64,000 nt of DNA from contig NC_134138.1 in the NCBI RefSeq assembly GCF_033958435.1, forward strand, positions 204,981,298 to 205,045,297, read 5' to 3'. Source of the stretch: Carettochelys insculpta. Lineage: Eukaryota; Chordata; Testudines; Carettochelyidae. Of this stretch, positions 4,041 through 60,160 are shown in pieces. How positions within the stretch are numbered: position 1 is the stretch's first letter; every line of letters starts with the position of its first letter. The notes beneath the pieces are model-generated. The model saw only the letters and a list, made by a program, of their open reading frames with translations. It was not told the origin of the DNA and did not search any database. Made by a program: the position numbers and the translations under genes.

Positions 4041-4475
4041 TCAGACGATAGCACTTTGTCTACAGTACAGCAATCTGCCGACAGAAGTTACTGCTGGAAG
4101 GGATTTTCTGGCAAATCTTTGACAGATCACATCCACGCACAAAAGCATATCAAAAGAGCAATCTGCTCTGTCGATAGAGAGTGGCCGGATAGCTCAGCCC
4201 TCTCTCGACAGAACAGCCAACCGGAGGCTCAGCAAACAGGGCTGCACAGTGAACCAGAAGCCCTCTCTGTCAACAGAGAGACTCCTGGAGAGTTTACACA
4301 GCTTTTCTGTTGACAGAAACTGAGATTTCAGAGAGGCAGAATGCTATCGGTGAAAGTGCCAAGTTTTGTTGCCAGACTGTTGACAAAACACATTTTGTGT
4401 GTAGGTGCTCTGCAAGGATTGTTCACAAAGCCCTGGTTTTGTCAACAAAACTCTCTGGTGTAAACATAGCCTAGA
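4041..4475. mobile_element. PIF/Harbinger-derived MITE (GTCGACAGA family)
   Basis: A roughly 435 bp element whose right end reads AACTCTCTGGTGTAAACATAGCC. It aligns with the reverse complement of the element at 21,635-22,074 through most of its length, sharing the blocks GCAATCTG.CGACAGA, CTCTC.ACAGAACAGCCAACC and AAACAGGGCTGC. The same blocks occur in the first 200 bp of the Harbinger relic at 24,566, so it is an internally deleted derivative of that element type. The left terminus is degraded. Confidence 0.65.
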
Positions 4476-5604
4476 AGTCTGTCCTGTCCAAGTTCATACA
4501 CAGGTACTATTTGAATGGGAATAACATCATTTTAACCAACGGGAGAGATTTTCAAGGAACACTGATCGTAGATGCTGTTTGTTTGTTTGTTTGTTTAGGG
4601 ATTTCTTCTCTTTCTTAAATAATGATGAAGCACAAAAGTAGCAGCCTGTGCCAGTGGTGGAAATGAAATGAGAGGGGCAGATTTTGAGGTAAATATTGCC
4701 ATGTCAGTCATAGTCACAAGGAACAAATTAATTTGCTTTCAATTTCTATCAAACACCAAACCATTTATGACATATCTGACAGACTCAAACTAGACAGAGG
4801 AGAGAGGGGGCAAACCTTGCAATAAAAAAGGAATCCAAAGCTGCTGCAGTTGGTTTGTTTCCCAGCAGCCCTCCCTCCAGGGTGCTTGGGTGCACAGATT
4901 CACTAATGAGACCAAGTTATTATTCCTTCCATTAGTACATGTTAACTCACTCAGTAGCATAGCCCTTTTGAGCCTGCCTGGCCCATAAAACCTGGAGCAC
5001 TTCCCTTTCATGTGCTCTGTTGCTTATCTGCTTTGACAACAATATGGAGAGACTTCCCTTCCTCTGGCTCAGGGCCATGCTAGGTCACCCTCACCGCATT
5101 GAGAGCTTTATGAGTAGTCAGAATAAGTGATGAAAGGTCCGAATTAATGTTTCATCCTGCAGAAAGGATATAAACATTAGCCTGATTGTTCTGATTAGTC
5201 TGCACAATAAAGGAGCAATTCTCCCATATATATATTGACAAATTTGTGACAACCTGTTGGCTGGAGCTACTAAATCAGAAGCAAGTTAGTGAATGACTGC
5301 TGGTGTGAGCTATATCCAGAGCTTGTACCTGTCCCAGCATATGAACAGTGAGCAGTCTCCTACAGAAACGTTTGCTGTGAAAGCTACATGCAGGGTGTTG
5401 TGTTATGGGTGTTAGGTATTGTGGGTTGAAGATTAAGCGTGGGAAGGAAAGGTATCAGAGTCAGGGTTTGATTGCAAAGATTTTCAGACAGATAATGCTA
5501 CTGTGTATGACACAGCAACAAAATAAGCAATTTGGAATATTTAAATATCCATTTTATTTTGTTCACAGCCAGTCACTAGCAAACATGCGAACAAGGGTAC
5601 AGCT
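4476..5604. other. Non-coding; short (TTTG)n tract
   Basis: Unique-looking AT-rich DNA with a short (TTTG)n simple repeat at about 4,576-4,597. No gene or other element could be supported. Confidence 0.5.
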
Positions 5605-12953: not shown

Positions 12954-13662
12954 AGCTGTGTCTACACGTGCACGCTACTTCAAAGTAGCGGCACTAACTT
13001 CGAAATAGCGCCCGTCATGGCTACACGTGTTGGGCACTATTTCGATGTTAACATCGACGTTAGGCGGCGAGACGTCGAAGTCGCTAACCCCATGAGGGGA
13101 TGGGAATAGCGCCCTACTTCGAAGTTCAACGTCGAAGTAGGGCACGTGTAGACGATCCACGTCCCGCAACATCAAAATAGCTGGGTCCACCATGGTGGCC
13201 ATCAGCTGAGGGGTTGAGAGACGCTCTCTCCAGCCCCTGCGGGGCTCTATGGTCACCGTGTGCAGCAGCCCTTAGCCCAGGGCTTCTGGCTGCTGCTGCG
13301 GCAGCTGGGGATCCATACTGCATGCACAGGGTCTGCAACCAGTTGTCGGCTCTGTGGATCTTGTGTTGTTTAGTGCAACTATGTCTGGGAGGGGCCCTTT
13401 AAGGGAGTGGCTTGCTGTTGAGTCCGCCCTGTGACCCTGTCTGCAGCTGTGCCTGGCACCCTTATTTTGATGTGTGCTACTTTGGCATGTAGACGTTCCC
13501 TCGCAGCGCCTATTTCGAAGTGGTGCTGCGCAACGTCAATGTTGAACATCGACGTTGCCAGCCCTGGAGGACGTGTAGACGTTATTCATCGAAATAGCCT
13601 ATTTCGATGTCGCTACATCGAAATAAGCTACTTCGATGGAGGCTTCACATGTAGACGTAGCT
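12954..13662. mobile_element. 0.7 kb MITE, TTCGAA-rich family, copy 2
   Basis: A 709 bp element beginning AGCTGTGTCTACAC and ending GTAGACGTAGCT. It is flanked on both sides by ATT (12,951-12,953 and 13,663-13,665). It follows copy 1 (2,880-3,574) almost base for base, with a few substitutions and a short extra segment near 13,585. It sits immediately after the 3' end of an L3-like LINE. No transposase is present; it depends on another element for movement. Confidence 0.75.
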
Positions 13663-13665
13663 ATT

Positions 13666-14105
13666 ATGTGATGTATTACTCCTATTTTATCCCAGTGAAA
13701 TGTTATTGATTTCAGTGGAGTTATACTTGCATAAAACAGAAGTACTACTGTTTAAAATCAGGCCCTGTATGTTGTTCATATTGATAGATGAAATATTATA
13801 TTGTATGTGCTGTCTTAACCTGCAAGAGAAAGGATGTAGATTATAGTTGTAACGCTGGAAATGCATAGGAAAAAGAACAACGCTATAGGGAAAAAGTGAC
13901 AGCTCTTTTGTAGTGCCAAAAGTAGGGGTTTGACACAGATTTTTGGATATCTAGGTCTCTCCACTGCAGAATAAAATGGTTTGAGTAACAATCAGGAGGA
14001 ACTACCTGACTGGTTATGCTGAAAATGTAGTATGTGCAAAACCATTGGGAGAACAGGGAATTCTGAAAATGTCCAAAACTTCATGTTTCTTACTTATTTT
14101 GAATA
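13666..14105. other. Non-coding; old repeat fragment
   Basis: Contains a piece of the ancient 'TTGATTTCAGTGGAGTTATAC ... AATCAGGCCCTG' reptilian repeat (13,690-13,770). The rest is unassigned. Confidence 0.4.
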
Positions 14106-14895
14106 CAGTCATACCCCAAGATACGCCATTCGAGTTATGAGAATTTGACTTTACAAGGAGTTTCATTTAATACCCCTACTTCAGCTTACAAGGCATTTCT
14201 TCGCATTTACGAGGACCGATTTGGAGACCGGTGGCTCTGGTAGGCAGGCACTGAGGGGATGGAGTCGGCCACATTGGTCTTGACGAAGAGGCCGTGCAGG
14301 GGGGCGGCGGCGCCCTGCAAGAGGGCGGCAGTCTGGTGCGAGGAGGTGGACGTGTCCGAGTCCCGACAGTCGATCATGCTGCTCTGTGAGACGTGGATGC
14401 TGGGCACGCAGCCCATCCTGGCCCTGCTGCTGCCGCTCACCCCCTGGGTGGCTAGGTGGCTGCCGCTGCCCGCCCTGTGCAGCTGTGCCTCAGGTGCCGC
14501 TTGCCGTCTGCCACACTCCCTCCCATTTAGCGCCTGGCTCGCCCACCGCTGCTGCCTATACGAGTGAGGAATCGCCCCTCTCCAGCTGGGGCCCGCTGTG
14601 CCTGCCTAGCTCCCTGTGCAGCCAGCCCCTGGCAGCGCCCCCTCCACGCTTAACCAAAGCTGCGCTCAGGCCAGGCCGCCTCCCCACGCCCTGCTCTGCC
14701 CTGCCCACCCCCTTGCACTGGATTTAATGAGATTTGGTGTTGTTTTAGCATAAATGGGTGTAAGTTTTGGGGCTCAGGAATGCAGAAAATTTTTTCCTAT
14801 GGAAATTAATGGTAATTACATTTTCGACTTACAAGAATTCACCCTAAGAGGGGTTTTTCATGAACGAATTACCCTCGTAAGGTGGGGGAAGACTG
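14106..14895. mobile_element. pogo/Tigger-like element carrying foreign GC-rich cargo
   Basis: The element begins CAGTCATACCCCAAGATACG and ends with GGTGGGGGAAGACTG, inverted repeats of the Tigger/pogo type. It is flanked by TA at 14,104-14,105 and 14,896-14,897, the target duplication expected for Tc1/mariner/pogo. The two outer arms (14,106-14,225 and 14,725-14,895) are AT-rich with 'cttacaag' and 'ttcgacttacaagaattc' words. The middle (14,226-14,724) is very GC- and CpG-rich and unlike the arms. It contains a fragment of a PDE8B-like first exon on the minus strand. No transposase is present. Confidence 0.75.
14210..14416 (-). pseudogene. PDE8B: Captured PDE8B-like N-terminal exon fragment
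   Basis: Read on the minus strand from an ATG at 14,416 with a good initiation context (A at -3, G at +4), the frame encodes [20 protein letters not shown], then [20 protein letters not shown] and NVADSIP. Phosphodiesterase 8 proteins (cAMP-specific, high affinity) start with an MGC lipidation signal. From memory the combination SIHVSQS, CRDSD and APLHGLFV marks PDE8B rather than PDE8A. Similarity fades after about 53 codons, where transposon arm sequence resumes, so there is no PAS or catalytic domain. The fragment lies wholly inside a Tigger-like element and is best read as a captured first exon, possibly with some 5' UTR upstream (14,417-14,724). It is unlikely to be functional. The assignment rests on recognition, not on a search. 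Confidence 0.7.
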
Positions 14896-15348
14896 TAGAA
14901 ACAAAGGTCAGATCCTAACCACACCCTTCCACTCCCTCAATATATGGAAGGCTCTGAAAGCATATGAACTGGTGTGATGAAGGATACCCTTGCAGGTCTA
15001 CCACACTGCCCAATGAAACTCACTTGTACAGGGATGGGGATAAATATGTGAAAACAATACAAAATACAAAGGCATTTTGATGGGGAGGGAAGGCAGACAA
15101 AGATCTGGTAGGATGGTGAATCCATAACCATACAGATCCAAATAGGACAGTAGATTTGCAGCTCTTCCAGTCTATATTTATGGAAGTTCTAGGGTTTTGG
15201 TTGTCTCCACAGAATACCCACAATTAAAACTGTAAGTTTATTTTCCTCTTCCTTCTGTAATACTCCTCCTTCCAATAGGAGCCATCCACTGAAGCACTTT
15301 TCCAAACTGCCTGCTGTCTTCTACCTATTCCCTCACAATGCCTTAGGA

Positions 15349-29239: not shown

Positions 29240-29866
29240 TCATGGGTTTGCGCCCCAGTTGGACTGATTCAAGCAGCGTCTTCTATGGCTGTGCAATCCA
29301 ATCTGGGAGTGGCAGTCCTTTCCGCACTGTGAGCAGCAGTAGGCAGATGTAGCTCTGGTATCACTGGCATGGATCTTCCTGAGGGGTCTCCTGTCTTCCA
29401 CTTCCTTCACCAAGGTAGTTTCATACATAGCAAGAGCTTCCTTCACTCCCTGTTTCCAGGCATGCGTGTCTGAGGCAAGTGGATGCCAGGTGTTCACACT
29501 GATAGAGAGAGCGCTGAGGTCACGCTTGCACGTATCCTTGTAGTGCAATTTAGGTCGCCCTTTTGGCCTCTTTCCAGATGCCAGTTCGCCGAAGAGGAGG
29601 TCCTTCAGTATTCGGCCATCCGTCATGTGTGAAACATGGCCCAGCCAGTGCATACGCCTCTGTTTGAGAAGGGTGAACATGGAGGCAGTGCCTGCCCTCT
29701 CAAGCACTGCGCTATTGGGGACCTTGTCCTGCCATGAGATACCGAGTATGCGCCTAAGGCAGTGCATGTGGAATGTGTTGAGCCGCTGCTCTTGTTTTGA
29801 GCGCAAAGTCCATGTTTCACTGGTGTACAGAAGTGTGCTCAAAACACAGGCTGTGTAGACCTGCAC
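29240..29866 (-). pseudogene. LINE C-terminal domain with C2H2-like finger
   Basis: A 208-codon frame continuing the LINE protein after a frameshift. Its end has the cysteine/histidine spacing C-x2-C-x12-H-x4-C with one more His (CSQCGKDCHSQIGLHSHRRR), a zinc-binding knuckle probably used to hold RNA or target DNA. It has no separate promoter and is not an independent gene. Confidence 0.7.
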
Positions 29867-29896
29867 CTTGGTGTGTACAGTGAGCTTATTGTTAGC

Positions 29897-30730
29897 CTAT
29901 ACTCTCTTCGTCAGCCTGGAGAACGTTGTGGCGGCTTTTCCAATGCACTTGTTGATCTCGCTATCAAGTGACAAGTTGTCCAAGATCGTCCAGCCTTGGT
30001 ACACAAACTCATGGACGACTTCCAGTTCGTAGTCAAGCATGTTGATAGATGGCTCGTTACCCATGTTTTGGCCCATCACCTGGGTCTTTAAGCTGATTGT
30101 GAGGCCAAATTCCATACCTGCATCCGCAAAGCGAGTTATGAGTGACTGCAGTTCCTGCTGAGTGTGAGCAGCAATAGCTGCATTGCCAGCAAAAAGGAAC
30201 TCCCTTAGACGCTTCGAAAGCACCCTGGTCTTCGCTCTAAGCCTCAACAGTTTGAAGGGGTTGCCGTCCGTTCTCCTGCAGAGAGAGATGCCCTCTGTAG
30301 CAGTTCCGAAGGCATATTTGAGCAAAACTGCGAAGAAGATTCCGAACAGTGTTGGAGCCAGCACACGCCCCTGCTTCACTCCACTGAGAATCACAAAGGG
30401 TTTGGATGTGGATCCATTGTATACGATGGTCCCCTTCATGCCTTCATGGAAGGCCCTAATAATGCTGAGCAGAGCTGGGGGACAGCCGATCTTAGCCAGA
30501 ATCGTGAACAGACCTTTTCTGCTGACCAGGTCAAATGCCTTGGTCAGGTCGATGAAGGCAATATACAGAGGTTTGTTCTGCTCCCTGCACTTTTCTTGTA
30601 GTTGCCTAACAGAGAAAACCATGTCTATGGTGGATCGTTCAGCTCTGAACCCACACTGAGACTCAGGGTAGACTCTCTCCACAAGAACATTGAGCCTCTT
30701 CAGAACAACACGTGCAAATAACTTCCCCAC
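29897..30730 (-). pseudogene. LINE reverse transcriptase remnant with mutated active site
   Basis: An open frame of 277 codons, unusually long for a relic. Residues 56-67 (YIAFIDLTKAFD) form the first catalytic block with Asp61, and residues 116-127 (SGVKQGRVLAPT) the next. At residues 178-184 the motif is FLFAGNA in place of the family FLFADDA. Both catalytic aspartates are changed, although the rest of the frame is open. The upstream part starts mid-domain. Confidence 0.8.
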
Positions 30731-30790
30731 GGTACTGAGAAGGGAGATGCCACGATAGTTGTTACAATCACTTTTGTCACCCTTGTTCTT

Positions 30791-56134: not shown

Positions 56135-56143
56135 TATATAAAG
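56135..56143 (+). promoter_or_regulatory. EOMES: TATA box of EOMES
   Basis: TATATAAAG in GC-rich surroundings, 145 bases upstream of the chosen ATG. It predicts a start of transcription near 56,165. The in-frame ATG at 56,151 therefore lies upstream of the mRNA start, which supports using the ATG at 56,280. Confidence 0.8.
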
Positions 56144-56279
56144 GGTCTCGGTGCCAGGCAGCCGCAAAGGCGGCCGTAGATGGTTTCGGGGGGCAGGCGG
56201 GGAGCAGCGCAGCGTAACGGGCCGGGCGGGGGCCCCGCGGCTCGGCGCGGCTCGGCGCGGTCCCTCCCAGGGCAGGGGG

Positions 56280-57004
56280 ATGCAGCTGGGGGAGCAGCTC
56301 CTCGGCAGCGCCGCTAGCCTGGCCGGGCCCCCCTTCTACCCGGCCGAGAGCGGCAGCGCCCGCGGCGGCCCCCGCGCCCAGGGCTCCCCCCCGCGCCTGG
56401 CCGGGGAGAAGGGGCCGAAGAAGTGCGGCAGCGCCGGGCCGGCCATGCTGAGCGAGGCGGAGGCCGGCGAGCCCTTCCCCGGCGCGCCCCCCAAGCCGGG
56501 CGCATCGGACGGCCGCAAGGCGGCCCCCTGCGGGGAGGCCGAGCTGCCCCCCGCCGCCTCCCGCTACCCGCTGGACGGCCTGAGCCCGGAGCGCTACTAC
56601 CTGCCCTCCCCCGGGCCGCAGGGCGCCGAGCTGGCGGGGCCCTGCTCGCTGTTCCCCTACCCGCCGGCGGCGCAGCACGGCTCGGTGTACCCCGCGCCCG
56701 GCGGGGCGCGCTACCCCTACGGCCCCGTGCTCTCCCCGGGCGGCTTCTCGGCCGCCGTGTGCTCGCCGGGCGGGCGGCCGCAGTTCGGGGCGGGCGGCGG
56801 CGGCGGCGCCTACCAGTACGGCCAGGGGGCGGCGGGGCCGCTCTACAGCCCCTACCCGGCGGCCGGCTCCTGCGGCGGGCTGGGGGCTCTGGCCGTGCCG
56901 GGCGCGGGGCCTGGGCTGCGGGCGCAGGTCTTCCTCTGCAACCGGCCGCTCTGGCTCAAGTTCCACCGGCACCAGACCGAGATGATCATCACCAAGCAGG
57001 GCAG
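56280..57004 (+). CDS. EOMES: EOMES exon 1 (coding part)
   Basis: Encodes residues 1-241 and two bases of 242: the GC-rich N-terminal activation region ([48 protein letters not shown]) and the first 25 residues of the T-box. It ends KQG-AG at the donor GCAG/GTGAGC. The open frame extends upstream to 56,151, but that ATG precedes the predicted cap site. Confidence 0.93.
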
Positions 57005-60000
57005 GTGAGCGCCGGGCGGGGGTCCCCGGGAAGCGGCGCCTCTGCCCTTCTCCGTAAGCCGCCAGGCTCCAGCTGCCGCTCGACGGGAGCGCTTTGAGCG
57101 GCGCGTCGGGCCCCGCTGCCCGCTCCGGCCGCGGGTGGGAGCTGGGCCCCGGCGGGGCGGGCGAGGGTCCCTCGCAGGGGCGGCGAGCAGGCGCGGCTTT
57201 GGCCGGTGCGCGCTTGCGGGGGGCGGGAGCCGGGACTGCGCCTGGCTCCGGGCGCGCGGGCTGCGGCGTAGCCGCTTTTAGAAGCGCTCCTCCGAGTGCG
57301 GGACGCGCCGCTTCCCGGGGACTCGCTCCAGCGGGCAGAGCCGGAGCCCGGCCCGGGCGCGTCGCTCACCCGCTCGCTCTCCGCTTTCTCCCCGCAGGCG
57401 CATGTTTCCCTTCCTGAGCTTCAACATCGCCGGCCTGAGCCCCACGGCCCATTACAACGTGTTCGTGGAGGTGGTGCTGGCCGATCCCAACCACTGGCGC
57501 TTCCAGGGGGGCAAGTGGGTGACCTGCGGGAAAGCGGACAACAACATGCAAGGTACGGCGGGCGGGCGCCTCTGAGCCGCCGGCCTCGGGGCCTGCTCCA
57601 CCTGCTGCTTCCCTAACATTGCTCTCCTCTTCTCTCTGCCCCACCGAGTCGATGGGGCGTCTGGGGGAACCCTCCAGCCCTAGTTTTGAAGCTTGGGGAA
57701 CGGTGTCAAATGCGAGAGAAACCCCCTGGCTGGAGATGGCGCTGCTAAGGCCTCACCCGGTCCCCAAGCCGAGCAGGGCATGAAATGAAACTTCCCAGAA
57801 TTAAGTAGACAAAGGTGTAAATTTGTCCTTCCCCAAAGCCGGCAGTCCCAGGGACTAGTTTACATGCCTCTGCCTCCCTCTTTGTCCCAGTGCTGGTACT
57901 AGACAATCTCTGGCACTCCTGTTTTCTACACTGTGTGTACAGAACCCTCGTATAATCCCGATCTTTTGTCTGTGTTTTTCCCACCCCCCCGCCAGGCAAC
58001 AAGGTGTATGTTCACCCAGAGTCCCCGAACACTGGGACTCACTGGATGAGGCAGGAGATCTCTTTTGGAAAGCTGAAACTGACCAATAACAAAGGTGCTA
58101 ACAATAATAGTACACAGGTAAATAACTGATAAATTACACGGCGGTTCCCTTAAGTCAAGAAAGCTAGTTAGTGATAAACTGGGTTTTTGCCTCAGAAAAC
58201 CTTAAACCACTTTTTTTTTTATAGTTCAAGAGACTTAAAAGCGATGGGAGGATAAGGTGAAAAACCTTCCCCTTAAACTTCTGTTTAGTCACTGCATACT
58301 GTGGTCTCTATACACTCTGTAGTTCTCTCAGAACAGCTGAGTTTTGTACACCACGGTACTCCGAAAGTGTTATCCACAGTCTAGTGAAATTGAGGATTAC
58401 CTCTTGCAAACTACCTGTGTCTGAAGCCTAAATTATCACCTTTCAAACATCTGATTTTGTTTTCCCTTCCCTATGGCAAGCAATTTTAATTTTGGGTGCA
58501 TTTTTGTTTTAATGGTATCCAAACTATGCTTTATGCCTTGTTTTTCCTAGATGATAGTACTGCAGTCTCTGCACAAATACCAACCTCGACTTCATATTGT
58601 CGAAGTGACTGAAGATGGGGTTGAAGATCTGAATGACTCTTCAAAGACTCAGACCTTTATTTTCCCAGAAACCCAGTTCATTGCTGTTACTGCATATCAA
58701 AATACTGATGTAAGTCATGGTGGTTTTGGGGAGGAGGAGGAAATCCATATGGAGCAAGTAAGAAACTTTAACTCAATTCTATTTCCCTACTCCAGATCAC
58801 ACAACTCAAAATTGACCATAATCCTTTTGCAAAAGGCTTCAGGGACAACTATGATTCGTAAGTATAATTTTACCCCTACCTCAATCTAACATCCATTTGG
58901 GAGGCATCATTCTGGCCTCATCTTAAAAAATGGAAATTTTTACAGAAACAACTTTGAACCCTTACTTTTACTTCAGAGAGACACTATATGTGCAGCTACA
59001 ATAGATGGTCCAACTCTTCATCTGAGTTTTTAAAATGTGTTTCATGTGGTTGTTTGTCGGCGAGTGGGTGACTATAAAGTTTGTCTAAGGGAGCTGACAA
59101 AGTAGATACTTTTAAAAATATCTGTAGATGGCTCTTGAAAAGCTGCTGGTCATGTTTTATGTATCTTGATATGGCTTGTGAAAGAAGTTAATTTCTCAAA
59201 GCATATGTGTATGCTGTGTTAAAAAGAGCTTTATTTAAAATGCTAGGCACGGAAGAGTCTTGAATTGAGAACTAGAGTGTAACAAGACTTGAACCTTTCA
59301 GAATTTATCAAGTGCCCTAAATCCCACATTTTTACCTTTAACACACAGTTCAGTTTCTGTCTGGCTTTTAATAGTATGTGGCATTGTAAAGACCAACACT
59401 TAGCGTTTTTCTTTTATATTGTAGCATGTACACAGGTTCAGAAAATGACAGATTAACTCCATCTCCCACGGATTCTCCTAGATCTCACCAGATTGTCCCA
59501 GGAGCCCGGTACAGCGTGCAGCCATTCTTCCAGGAACAGTTTGTCAACAACTTGCCACCAGCTAGATTTTACAATGGTGAGAGAACTGTGCCTCAGACAA
59601 ATGGCCTCCTCTCGCCTCAGCAGAATGAAGAGGTAGCCAATCCTCCCCAGAGATGGTTTGTTACGCCTGTGCAGCAGCCTGCTACAAACAAACTGGACAT
59701 GAACTCTTATGAAACTGAATATTCTCCTAGCACCTTGCTCCCCTATGGCATTAAATCGCTTCCCTTGCAGACATCCCATGCCTTGGGATATTATTCCGAT
59801 CCAACATTCCCTTCCATGGCAGGATGGGGAAGCAGAGGCTCTTACCAGAGAAAAATGACAACTGGGTTACCTTGGACGTCCCGAACAAGTCCTCCAAGTT
59901 TCTCTGAAGACCAGCTTCCCAAGGAGAAGGTGAAAGAAGAAATCAGCTCATCCTGGATAGAAACCCCACCATCAATAAAATCTCTAGATTCAAATGATTC

Positions 60001-60160
60001 TGGTGTTTACACTAGTGCTTGTAAGAGAAGACGGCTCTCCCCTAGCACGTCCAGCAATGAAAATTCTCCAACAATGAAATGCGAAGACATGAATGCTGAG
60101 GACTATAGCAAAGACACTTCAAAAGGCATGGGCTACTACGCTTTCTATACTACTACTTAG
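56280..60160 (+). CDS. EOMES: Eomesodermin (TBR2), T-box transcription factor, six exons
   Basis: EOMES is a nuclear T-box activator needed for mesendoderm, cortical intermediate progenitors and, in amniotes, cytotoxic lymphocytes. Exons: 56,280-57,004; 57,398-57,552; 57,996-58,117; 58,551-58,709; 58,796-58,857; 59,425-60,160. Together they give 1,959 bases, 652 residues plus TAG, and every intron is GT-AG with a consistent phase. The start [10 protein letters not shown] matches the family start. The T-box spans about residues 217-408 ([19 protein letters not shown] near its start, [11 protein letters not shown] at its end). The C-terminal transactivation region (409-652) carries [17 protein letters not shown] and ends [11 protein letters not shown]. 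The protein is shorter than the human one (686 residues), mostly in the N-terminal low-complexity part, where the human polyalanine stretch is absent. TBR1 and TBX21 are excluded by the start and by the C-terminal text. No frameshift or missing key residue was seen. Confidence 0.97.
57398..57552 (+). CDS. EOMES: EOMES exon 2
   Basis: Starts after CCCCGCAG and completes the split Arg codon, then [47 protein letters not shown]. It ends CAAG/GTACGG. This is core T-box DNA-binding sequence. Confidence 0.95.
57996..58117 (+). CDS. EOMES: EOMES exon 3
   Basis: Starts after CCGCCAG and completes Gly, then [40 protein letters not shown]. It ends ACACAG/GTAAAT on a codon boundary. This is T-box core. 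Confidence 0.95.
58551..58709 (+). CDS. EOMES: EOMES exon 4
   Basis: 53 codons from [19 protein letters not shown] to [14 protein letters not shown], ending GAT/GTAAGT in phase 0. It contains the T-box signature with [10 protein letters not shown] and ITAYQN-type text. A second in-frame donor-like site follows 48 bases later (CAA/GTAAGA at 58,758). Confidence 0.95.
58796..58857 (+). CDS. EOMES: EOMES exon 5
   Basis: 62 bases after [28 protein letters not shown] and the first two bases of Ser, donor TTC/GTAAGT. This is the end of the T-box. The intron before it is only 86 bases. Confidence 0.95.
59425..60160 (+). CDS. EOMES: EOMES exon 6 (coding part)
   Basis: Starts after ATTGTAG, completes Ser408, then [20 protein letters not shown]. 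It continues with [94 protein letters not shown] and the C-terminal [16 protein letters not shown], stop TAG at 60,158-60,160. This is the transactivation region, very close to the mammalian protein. Confidence 0.97.

Follow-up and report, generated by a model that had tools for sequence, protein, structure and literature searches.

A Tigger transposon of the pogo group very probably acquired about 970 bp of genomic DNA from the gene PDE8B and then multiplied and shed pieces by deletion (probability about 0.95). The element in the window (the whole stretch of 64 000 nucleotides of Carettochelys insculpta DNA that was analysed) lies at 14106–14895; it is a non-autonomous Tigger (pogo-type) transposon of 790 bp bounded by TA duplications and contains no transposase of its own. 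Internal deletions have shortened it relative to a larger capture, and the splice donor of PDE8B is missing from it. In longer relatives (∼1.39 kb), genomic DNA from PDE8B is present as a single piece of ∼970 bp, made up of CpG-rich upstream DNA, coding exon 1 in full, its splice donor and intron 1 over ∼200 bp. The features of the window element are given in Table 1.

Table 1. Features of the PDE8B-carrying element in the window
Feature	Position	Strand	Remarks
TA target-site duplication, left	14104..14105	.	direct reading of sequence
Tigger arm, 3′ end in PDE8B sense (the full Tigger's transposase-side end)	14106..14225	-	terminates ...GGTATGACTG
Open frame of 69 codons with stop; PDE8B N-terminus whose final residues are arm-derived	14207..14416	-	
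PDE8B-derived core: CpG-rich upstream DNA, 5′UTR side and first ∼63 codons of exon 1	14226..14722	-	
Tigger arm, 5′ end in PDE8B sense, starts CAGTCTTCCCCC	14723..14895	-	long-form 1–173, 93%
TA target-site duplication, right	14896..14897	.	direct reading of sequence

The window element starts with CAGTCATACCCC and ends with GGGGGAAGACTG. CAGTC...GACTG was found at either terminus of this element and of the aligned copies; past these terminal bases the inverted match between the ends is short and imperfect. Of the short copies, 25/30 are flanked by TA at both ends, as are 15/24 of the long copies whose ends could be placed (25 were examined; L039, a long copy with unplaceable ends, stands outside the count). 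The terminal inverted repeats (TIRs) and TA duplications are as given in a preliminary description of this DNA. The 3′ arm matches long-form 1274–1394 at 91.7%, the same end being present in the transposase-bearing copies L102 and L103, and the core corresponds to long-form 388–918 (80% match). The core had been placed at 14226–14724 and called CpG-rich; this stretch has a GC content of 68.7% and a CpG observed/expected ratio of 0.53 versus 0.39 in the whole window, and its PDE8B origin holds for an extent of about 14226–14722.

An ATG on the minus strand at 14416 opens a frame of 69 codons, with a stop that ends at 14207; about 53 stop-free codons had been claimed, and the frame is indeed open, the extra length including its last codons in the arm. 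Residues 1–47 are matched by the Pfam family PF08629 (PDE8) at 7e-18 and 65 bits (cut-off 25), which rules out chance resemblance and bears out the earlier identification of a PDE8B N-terminus. A search of 5.8 billion proteins, restricted to 0.55–1.75 times the query length, gave one candidate and one match, a partial PDE8B-type protein of the turtle Natator depressus with 79% identity to the window frame peptide over 61 residues.

Other features of the window were recorded in passing. Exons of a T-box gene at 56142–57008 and 59390–60160 (+ strand; T-box_assoc PF16176, 6.8e-115; partial T-box match, 6.2e-5, below the cut-off) read like EOMES; the PDE8B element lies about 41–42 kb upstream of them in the opposite orientation. 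A LINE-type reverse transcriptase occupies 29240–30790 on the minus strand (RVT_1, 2.7e-25 for 29897–30787), and the neighbouring frame at 29240–29893 gave no Pfam match. Short inverted repeats clustered around TTCGAAATAGC at 12995–13640 (GC 0.55–0.60) are perhaps another TIR element.

The best match to the PDE8B exon in the same assembly (2.18 Gb, 134 contigs) lies at C5:86524338. Exon 1 there is identical in 105/105 residues to the start of the 888-residue PDE8B record P0039, and later exons of P0039 are located on the same strand of C5, 59–106 kb downstream of exon 1. The match is to PDE8B, as had been proposed, by PF08629 and by the exon on C5 with its later exons. The exon-1 frame is 315 bases long and GTAAAG comes after it; this is the point at which, in the PDE8B of Polypterus and mouse, the exon-1 peptide leads on to the remainder of the protein. 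No match to the transposon arms was found around exon 1 within the 9.9 kb read on C5. The expectation that the core would be met both at a PDE8B locus without the arms and at further places with the same ends agrees with what the genome search returned, the further places being many.

Positions 279–1248 of the long form are collinear with 4404–5361 of the PDE8B locus (L061), with 872/982 columns identical for the raw majority sequence and 894/953 ungapped positions identical for the CpG-adjusted majority sequence. The captured stretch (L061 4404 to about 5361) lies inside the CpG-rich zone of this locus (about 4400–5600). Besides the start codon and the whole coding exon, the capture holds the donor and ∼200 bp of intronic sequence, and so it was acquired as DNA and not as cDNA. 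The protein search brought 30 loci, namely the donor gene and 29 others, of which 25 were cut end to end and used as long copies; L042, L047, L053 and L059 were excluded since no such cut could be made. The lengths of 23 of these 25 are 1279–1415 bp, with L056 at 961 bp and L058 at 1511 bp. Most of the 25 retain the start codon, the open exon and the GTAAAG donor, although open frames are favoured in this set, whose copies were picked via a protein search. In a subtype of the long copies (L043, L054, L052, L058, L060 and others) the exon part is 21 bases shorter in frame (291 versus 312), which muddles the common majority sequence.

In the long form a Tigger end of 279 bp is followed by the ∼970 bp of PDE8B DNA and by a second Tigger end of ∼134 bp. 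The left junction has one shared G. The right junction contains about 11–17 filler bases for which neither parent fully accounts, including an octamer that is also found in PDE8B just inside the breakpoint. These structures are compatible with template switching or repair, short of proof.

Transposase-bearing relatives came from reading sampled 3′ arms. The elements at L089 and L084, L102 (2726 bp) and L103 (2693 bp) respectively, have ends that match the long form (94% to long-form 1–279; 93% and 88% to 1260/1262–1394). Open pieces of L102, which was scanned alone, matched the Pfam families CENP-B_N (1.5e-7), HTH_Tnp_Tc5 (1e-8) and DDE_1 (1.3e-21), and L103 is 87% identical to L102. Neither carries the PDE8B core, which speaks against the core being part of a normal Tigger, in keeping with the original proposal. 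No intact transposase was found in the two full Tigger copies read, both of which have broken frames. By eye, L100 seems to have the same sequence as L102 and L103. Since L102 and L103 match the long form at its two ends, the latter is composed of a Tigger end, PDE8B DNA and a Tigger end, the insert occupying the place of the middle of a ∼2.7 kb transposase-bearing Tigger. By the tests made (TA, CAGT TIRs and the transposase domains of the relatives), the PDE8B-carrying transposon is a Tigger.

The short form, to which the window element belongs, equals the long form minus 174–386 and 916–1273; the second of these internal deletions takes out the donor at long-form 1037. Each of 30 short copies (L001–L030) is 89–93% identical to a majority sequence of ∼830 bp. 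A medium form lacks roughly long-form 764–950, i.e. most of the coding part; its start codon is visible in nine of ten copies over the displayed stretch, which did not include L063, and GTAAA was read at the donor in all five copies (of ten) with a fetched piece extending as far as the end of the exon. Two short copies, L068 and L093, share a further deletion at about long-form 545–848 and possibly represent a fourth subfamily. L087 is rearranged, with a piece of the 5′ arm (long-form 1–108) fused to core 561–918.

The whole-element genome search gave at least 42 matches at E ≤ 0.001 (best 40 of 1093 first-look candidates scored) and the exon-protein search gave at least 150 (best 150 of 1192 candidates scored); with the 5′ arm, the best 40 of 999 candidates were scored. 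Copies are spread over many chromosomes, and the 55 that were aligned (30 short, 25 long) occupy distinct sites and have common ends. A 22-mer from the 3′ arm has 276 exact occurrences in the genome, against 0 for its reversed control; allowing up to three mismatches gives 735 (control, 32), the near-match search adding counts alone, so that the places listed are those of the exact search. A 22-mer from the core has 174 exact occurrences (control, 0). Exact words are present in 41/55 (3′ arm) and 23/55 (core) of the aligned copies. On C1 and C2, which make up 31% of the genome, the exact-word lists hold 94 (3′ arm) and 58 (core) places with 26 in common, from which a Chapman estimate of 207 elements (s.e. 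24) was obtained, assuming that the words are lost independently. As a rough estimate there are ∼680–700 elements with the 3′ arm genome-wide and roughly 600–610 with PDE8B DNA.

The latter figure (about 610) follows from applying to ∼680 elements the share found in a 3′-arm sample, the first 30 listed places on C1, in which 27 hold PDE8B DNA and three do not. Ten of the 30 are PDE8B copies known from earlier searches and 20 were newly fetched; these comprise 12 of short type, three medium, two long and three without PDE8B (L084, L089 and L100), the short form being the commonest type in this unbiased sample. In a 5′-arm sample (20 of the best 40 of the 999 candidates, read inwards, the window copy omitted), which favours arms similar to that of the window element, PDE8B DNA was present in 20/20, with nine of short type, one partial (L073) and ten medium.

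It might be supposed that the transfer ran the other way and that the transposon is the source of PDE8B exon 1, given that the element far outnumbers the gene. In mouse, birds, Sphenodon and the fish Polypterus, however, the exon-1 peptide forms the N-terminus of PDE8B, the gene exon has no flanking arms, and the two transposase-bearing Tigger copies are without the exon; a reversed direction is hardly conceivable. That the exon belongs to PDE8B in fish, birds and mouse sets the direction as gene to transposon, which is the direction first suggested. The many copies on many chromosomes could also be retrocopies or segmental duplications of exon 1 whose transposon ends are chance neighbours. 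Upstream DNA and intron 1 in the copies show that they are not cDNA, and segmental duplication is at odds with breakpoints common to the copies and with identical TIR ends flanked by TA duplications, leaving this explanation a negligible chance. All three origins were rejected.

Capture of PDE8B by Tigger, probably in a turtle lineage, most likely replaced a transposase region of ∼2.3 kb with the ∼970 bp of genomic DNA (CpG-rich upstream and 5′UTR side, all of coding exon 1, GT donor and intron 1 over ∼200 bp), the junctions presumably arising by template switching or repair. As the founder retained both Tigger ends, transposase made elsewhere could have mobilized it in trans. Amplification to roughly 600 copies was accompanied by internal deletions: the medium form lost most of the coding part, though not its start codon or its donor, and in the short form the donor is gone and the frame now ends in the arm. 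A single founder is suggested by the shared breakpoints and not by the tree; in a tree of 54 copies (L056 was left out, having too few sites), with the PDE8B gene as the only outgroup and root, the 30 short copies form one group with a support of 0.57, and the terminal branches are long. Measured against the CpG-adjusted sequence, short copies have diverged at non-CpG sites by 0.037 on average (s.d. 0.006) and long copies by 0.045 (s.d. 0.010). With a turtle substitution rate of 0.5–1 per billion years, these divergences would give an age of some tens of millions of years. A founder peptide as typed from the alignment falls with the PDE8B of this genome (0.80) and next with P0040 (0.85), not with other turtles, which hints at a capture within this turtle lineage.

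The preliminary description raised the possibility that the element, if amplified, had spread a promoter and a peptide across the genome. Spread of promoter-side DNA and of the peptide code is evident at the DNA level; the state of the CpG sites speaks against wide germline activity of the copies. CpG decay was counted in 1059/1868 cells of the core versus 198/423 of the arms in short copies and in 1811/2914 versus 319/522 in long copies, at levels that may be biased by the choice of the sites from the copies themselves. A protected promoter would be expected to have less CpG decay in the core. As decay in the core equals or exceeds that in the arms, the copies are probably methylated, and at present most of them would be inert methylated repeats.

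Selection on the peptide, which would make this a coding transposon family, was considered by the comparison of replacement and silent changes that had been suggested earlier, carried out on the 30 short copies. The PDE8B part is open in 22/30 of these and two long subtypes differ by 21 bases in frame; non-CpG transitions (46 replacement/38 silent over 104/44 sites) give a ratio of 0.51, which by itself would hint at some constraint. The ratio is 1.33 for non-CpG transversions (61/10 over 243/53 sites), 0.87 for CpG transitions (176/169 over 24/20 sites) and 0.74 for CpG transversions (15/9 over 61/27 sites), variants common to several copies not being independent in these counts. Overall, the changes appear close to neutral, and medium forms spread despite the loss of most of the coding part; maintenance of the peptide by selection is very improbable.

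The long and medium forms could in principle serve a downstream gene as promoter and first exon. An exon-trap layout of promoter-side DNA, start codon and donor is present in the long copies and, where readable, in the medium ones, and is incomplete in the window copy and the short form, which lack the donor. That such dispersed copies act in this way today, starting transcription and splicing an MGC leader onto neighbouring genes, draws support from the preserved start codon, exon and donor in most of the 25 long copies selected by protein search, from the donor kept in 5/10 medium copies (those whose piece reached it) and from the captured DNA being the CpG-rich start of PDE8B; HelibatN3, with the same layout, drives transcripts (PMC4778049). 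Against it stand the core CpG decay, the nearly neutral coding changes and the absence of a donor from the commonest form in the 3′-arm sample (short, 12/20). No fusion proteins were seen among the matches of three protein searches, namely one match (38–120 residues), 27 matches (186–591 residues) and the 120 listed of 685 (317–1010 residues). All three returned PDE8B-type first exons; eight of the 27 were named, none as turtle, and every one of the 120 listed of 685 contains the PF00233 phosphodiesterase domain. Present-day exon trapping is judged unlikely. It is similarly doubtful that, among the several hundred copies of this mobile cassette (CpG-island start, first coding exon and donor), some of the long or medium type still serve as transcript starts and so equip other proteins of the turtle with a PDE8B-type MGC leader, which is probably lipid-modified. 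In that case the capture would have given rise to a set of new gene structures in the host and may have aided the spread of the element through open germline chromatin during its active period.

Plants offer well-known examples of gene capture by cut-and-paste transposons: Pack-MULEs and other Pack-TYPE elements, which are TIR elements of the non-autonomous kind, hold pieces of genes and are able to multiply; they belong to other superfamilies and hosts, whereas the PDE8B element is a Tigger/pogo element of a vertebrate. MITE-like non-autonomous Tigger derivatives are deletion derivatives with Tigger ends. Like them, the PDE8B element outnumbers transposase-bearing copies (27 versus 3 in the 3′-arm sample), but its core is host gene DNA and not the transposon remnants that the ordinary ones hold.

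In animals, the main text of Tan et al. (2021; PMC8277862) reports 370 Pack-TIRs from 100 animal genomes, four of them multicopy (three in the frog, one of these with three copies, and one in alligator), as well as a four-copy fly family; for the multicopy cases its authors propose transposition after template switching, and the word turtle is absent from that main text. As in the Pack-TIRs it describes, TcMariner-type ones among them, host genomic DNA lies between the ends of a TIR transposon: 970 bp are collinear with PDE8B on C5, the parental locus is without the ends in the 9.9 kb read, and 55 aligned copies at distinct sites share the same ends, genome word counts agreeing in scale with hundreds. 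The PDE8B element fits the description of a Pack-TIR and differs from the animal examples given there by its several hundred copies and its complete first exon, donor and upstream DNA. The closest working analogue is the HelibatN3 Helitrons of bats, for which PMC4778049 describes capture of the NUBPL promoter, its activity and the transcripts driven by it. Promoter-side DNA, coding start and splice donor were captured and amplified in both, and HelibatN3 can act as an exon trap, as the PDE8B element in principle could; HelibatN3 is a rolling-circle Helitron that codes for six residues and is without TIRs or TA duplications, while the PDE8B element has both and a whole first exon, any activity of the latter element being putative. 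A literature search on PDE8B, turtle and transposon found no paper on a PDE8B-carrying element, and an entry may exist in Repbase or Dfam. The novelty lies in the scale of the captured cassette and in its completeness, for a cut-and-paste element of a vertebrate.

The many loci with a near-intact PDE8B first exon are a risk to annotation, as they may be mis-called as genes. Capture of a gene with subsequent mass copying by a Tigger-type element is rare in a vertebrate, and this family is such a case. Nearly all captures in the animal survey, as given in the main text of PMC8277862, are single-copy, and the PDE8B case indicates that high copy number is possible in a vertebrate. Because the donor gene, the transposase relatives and the long and graded deletion forms are found in one genome, capture, spread and silencing can be traced there.
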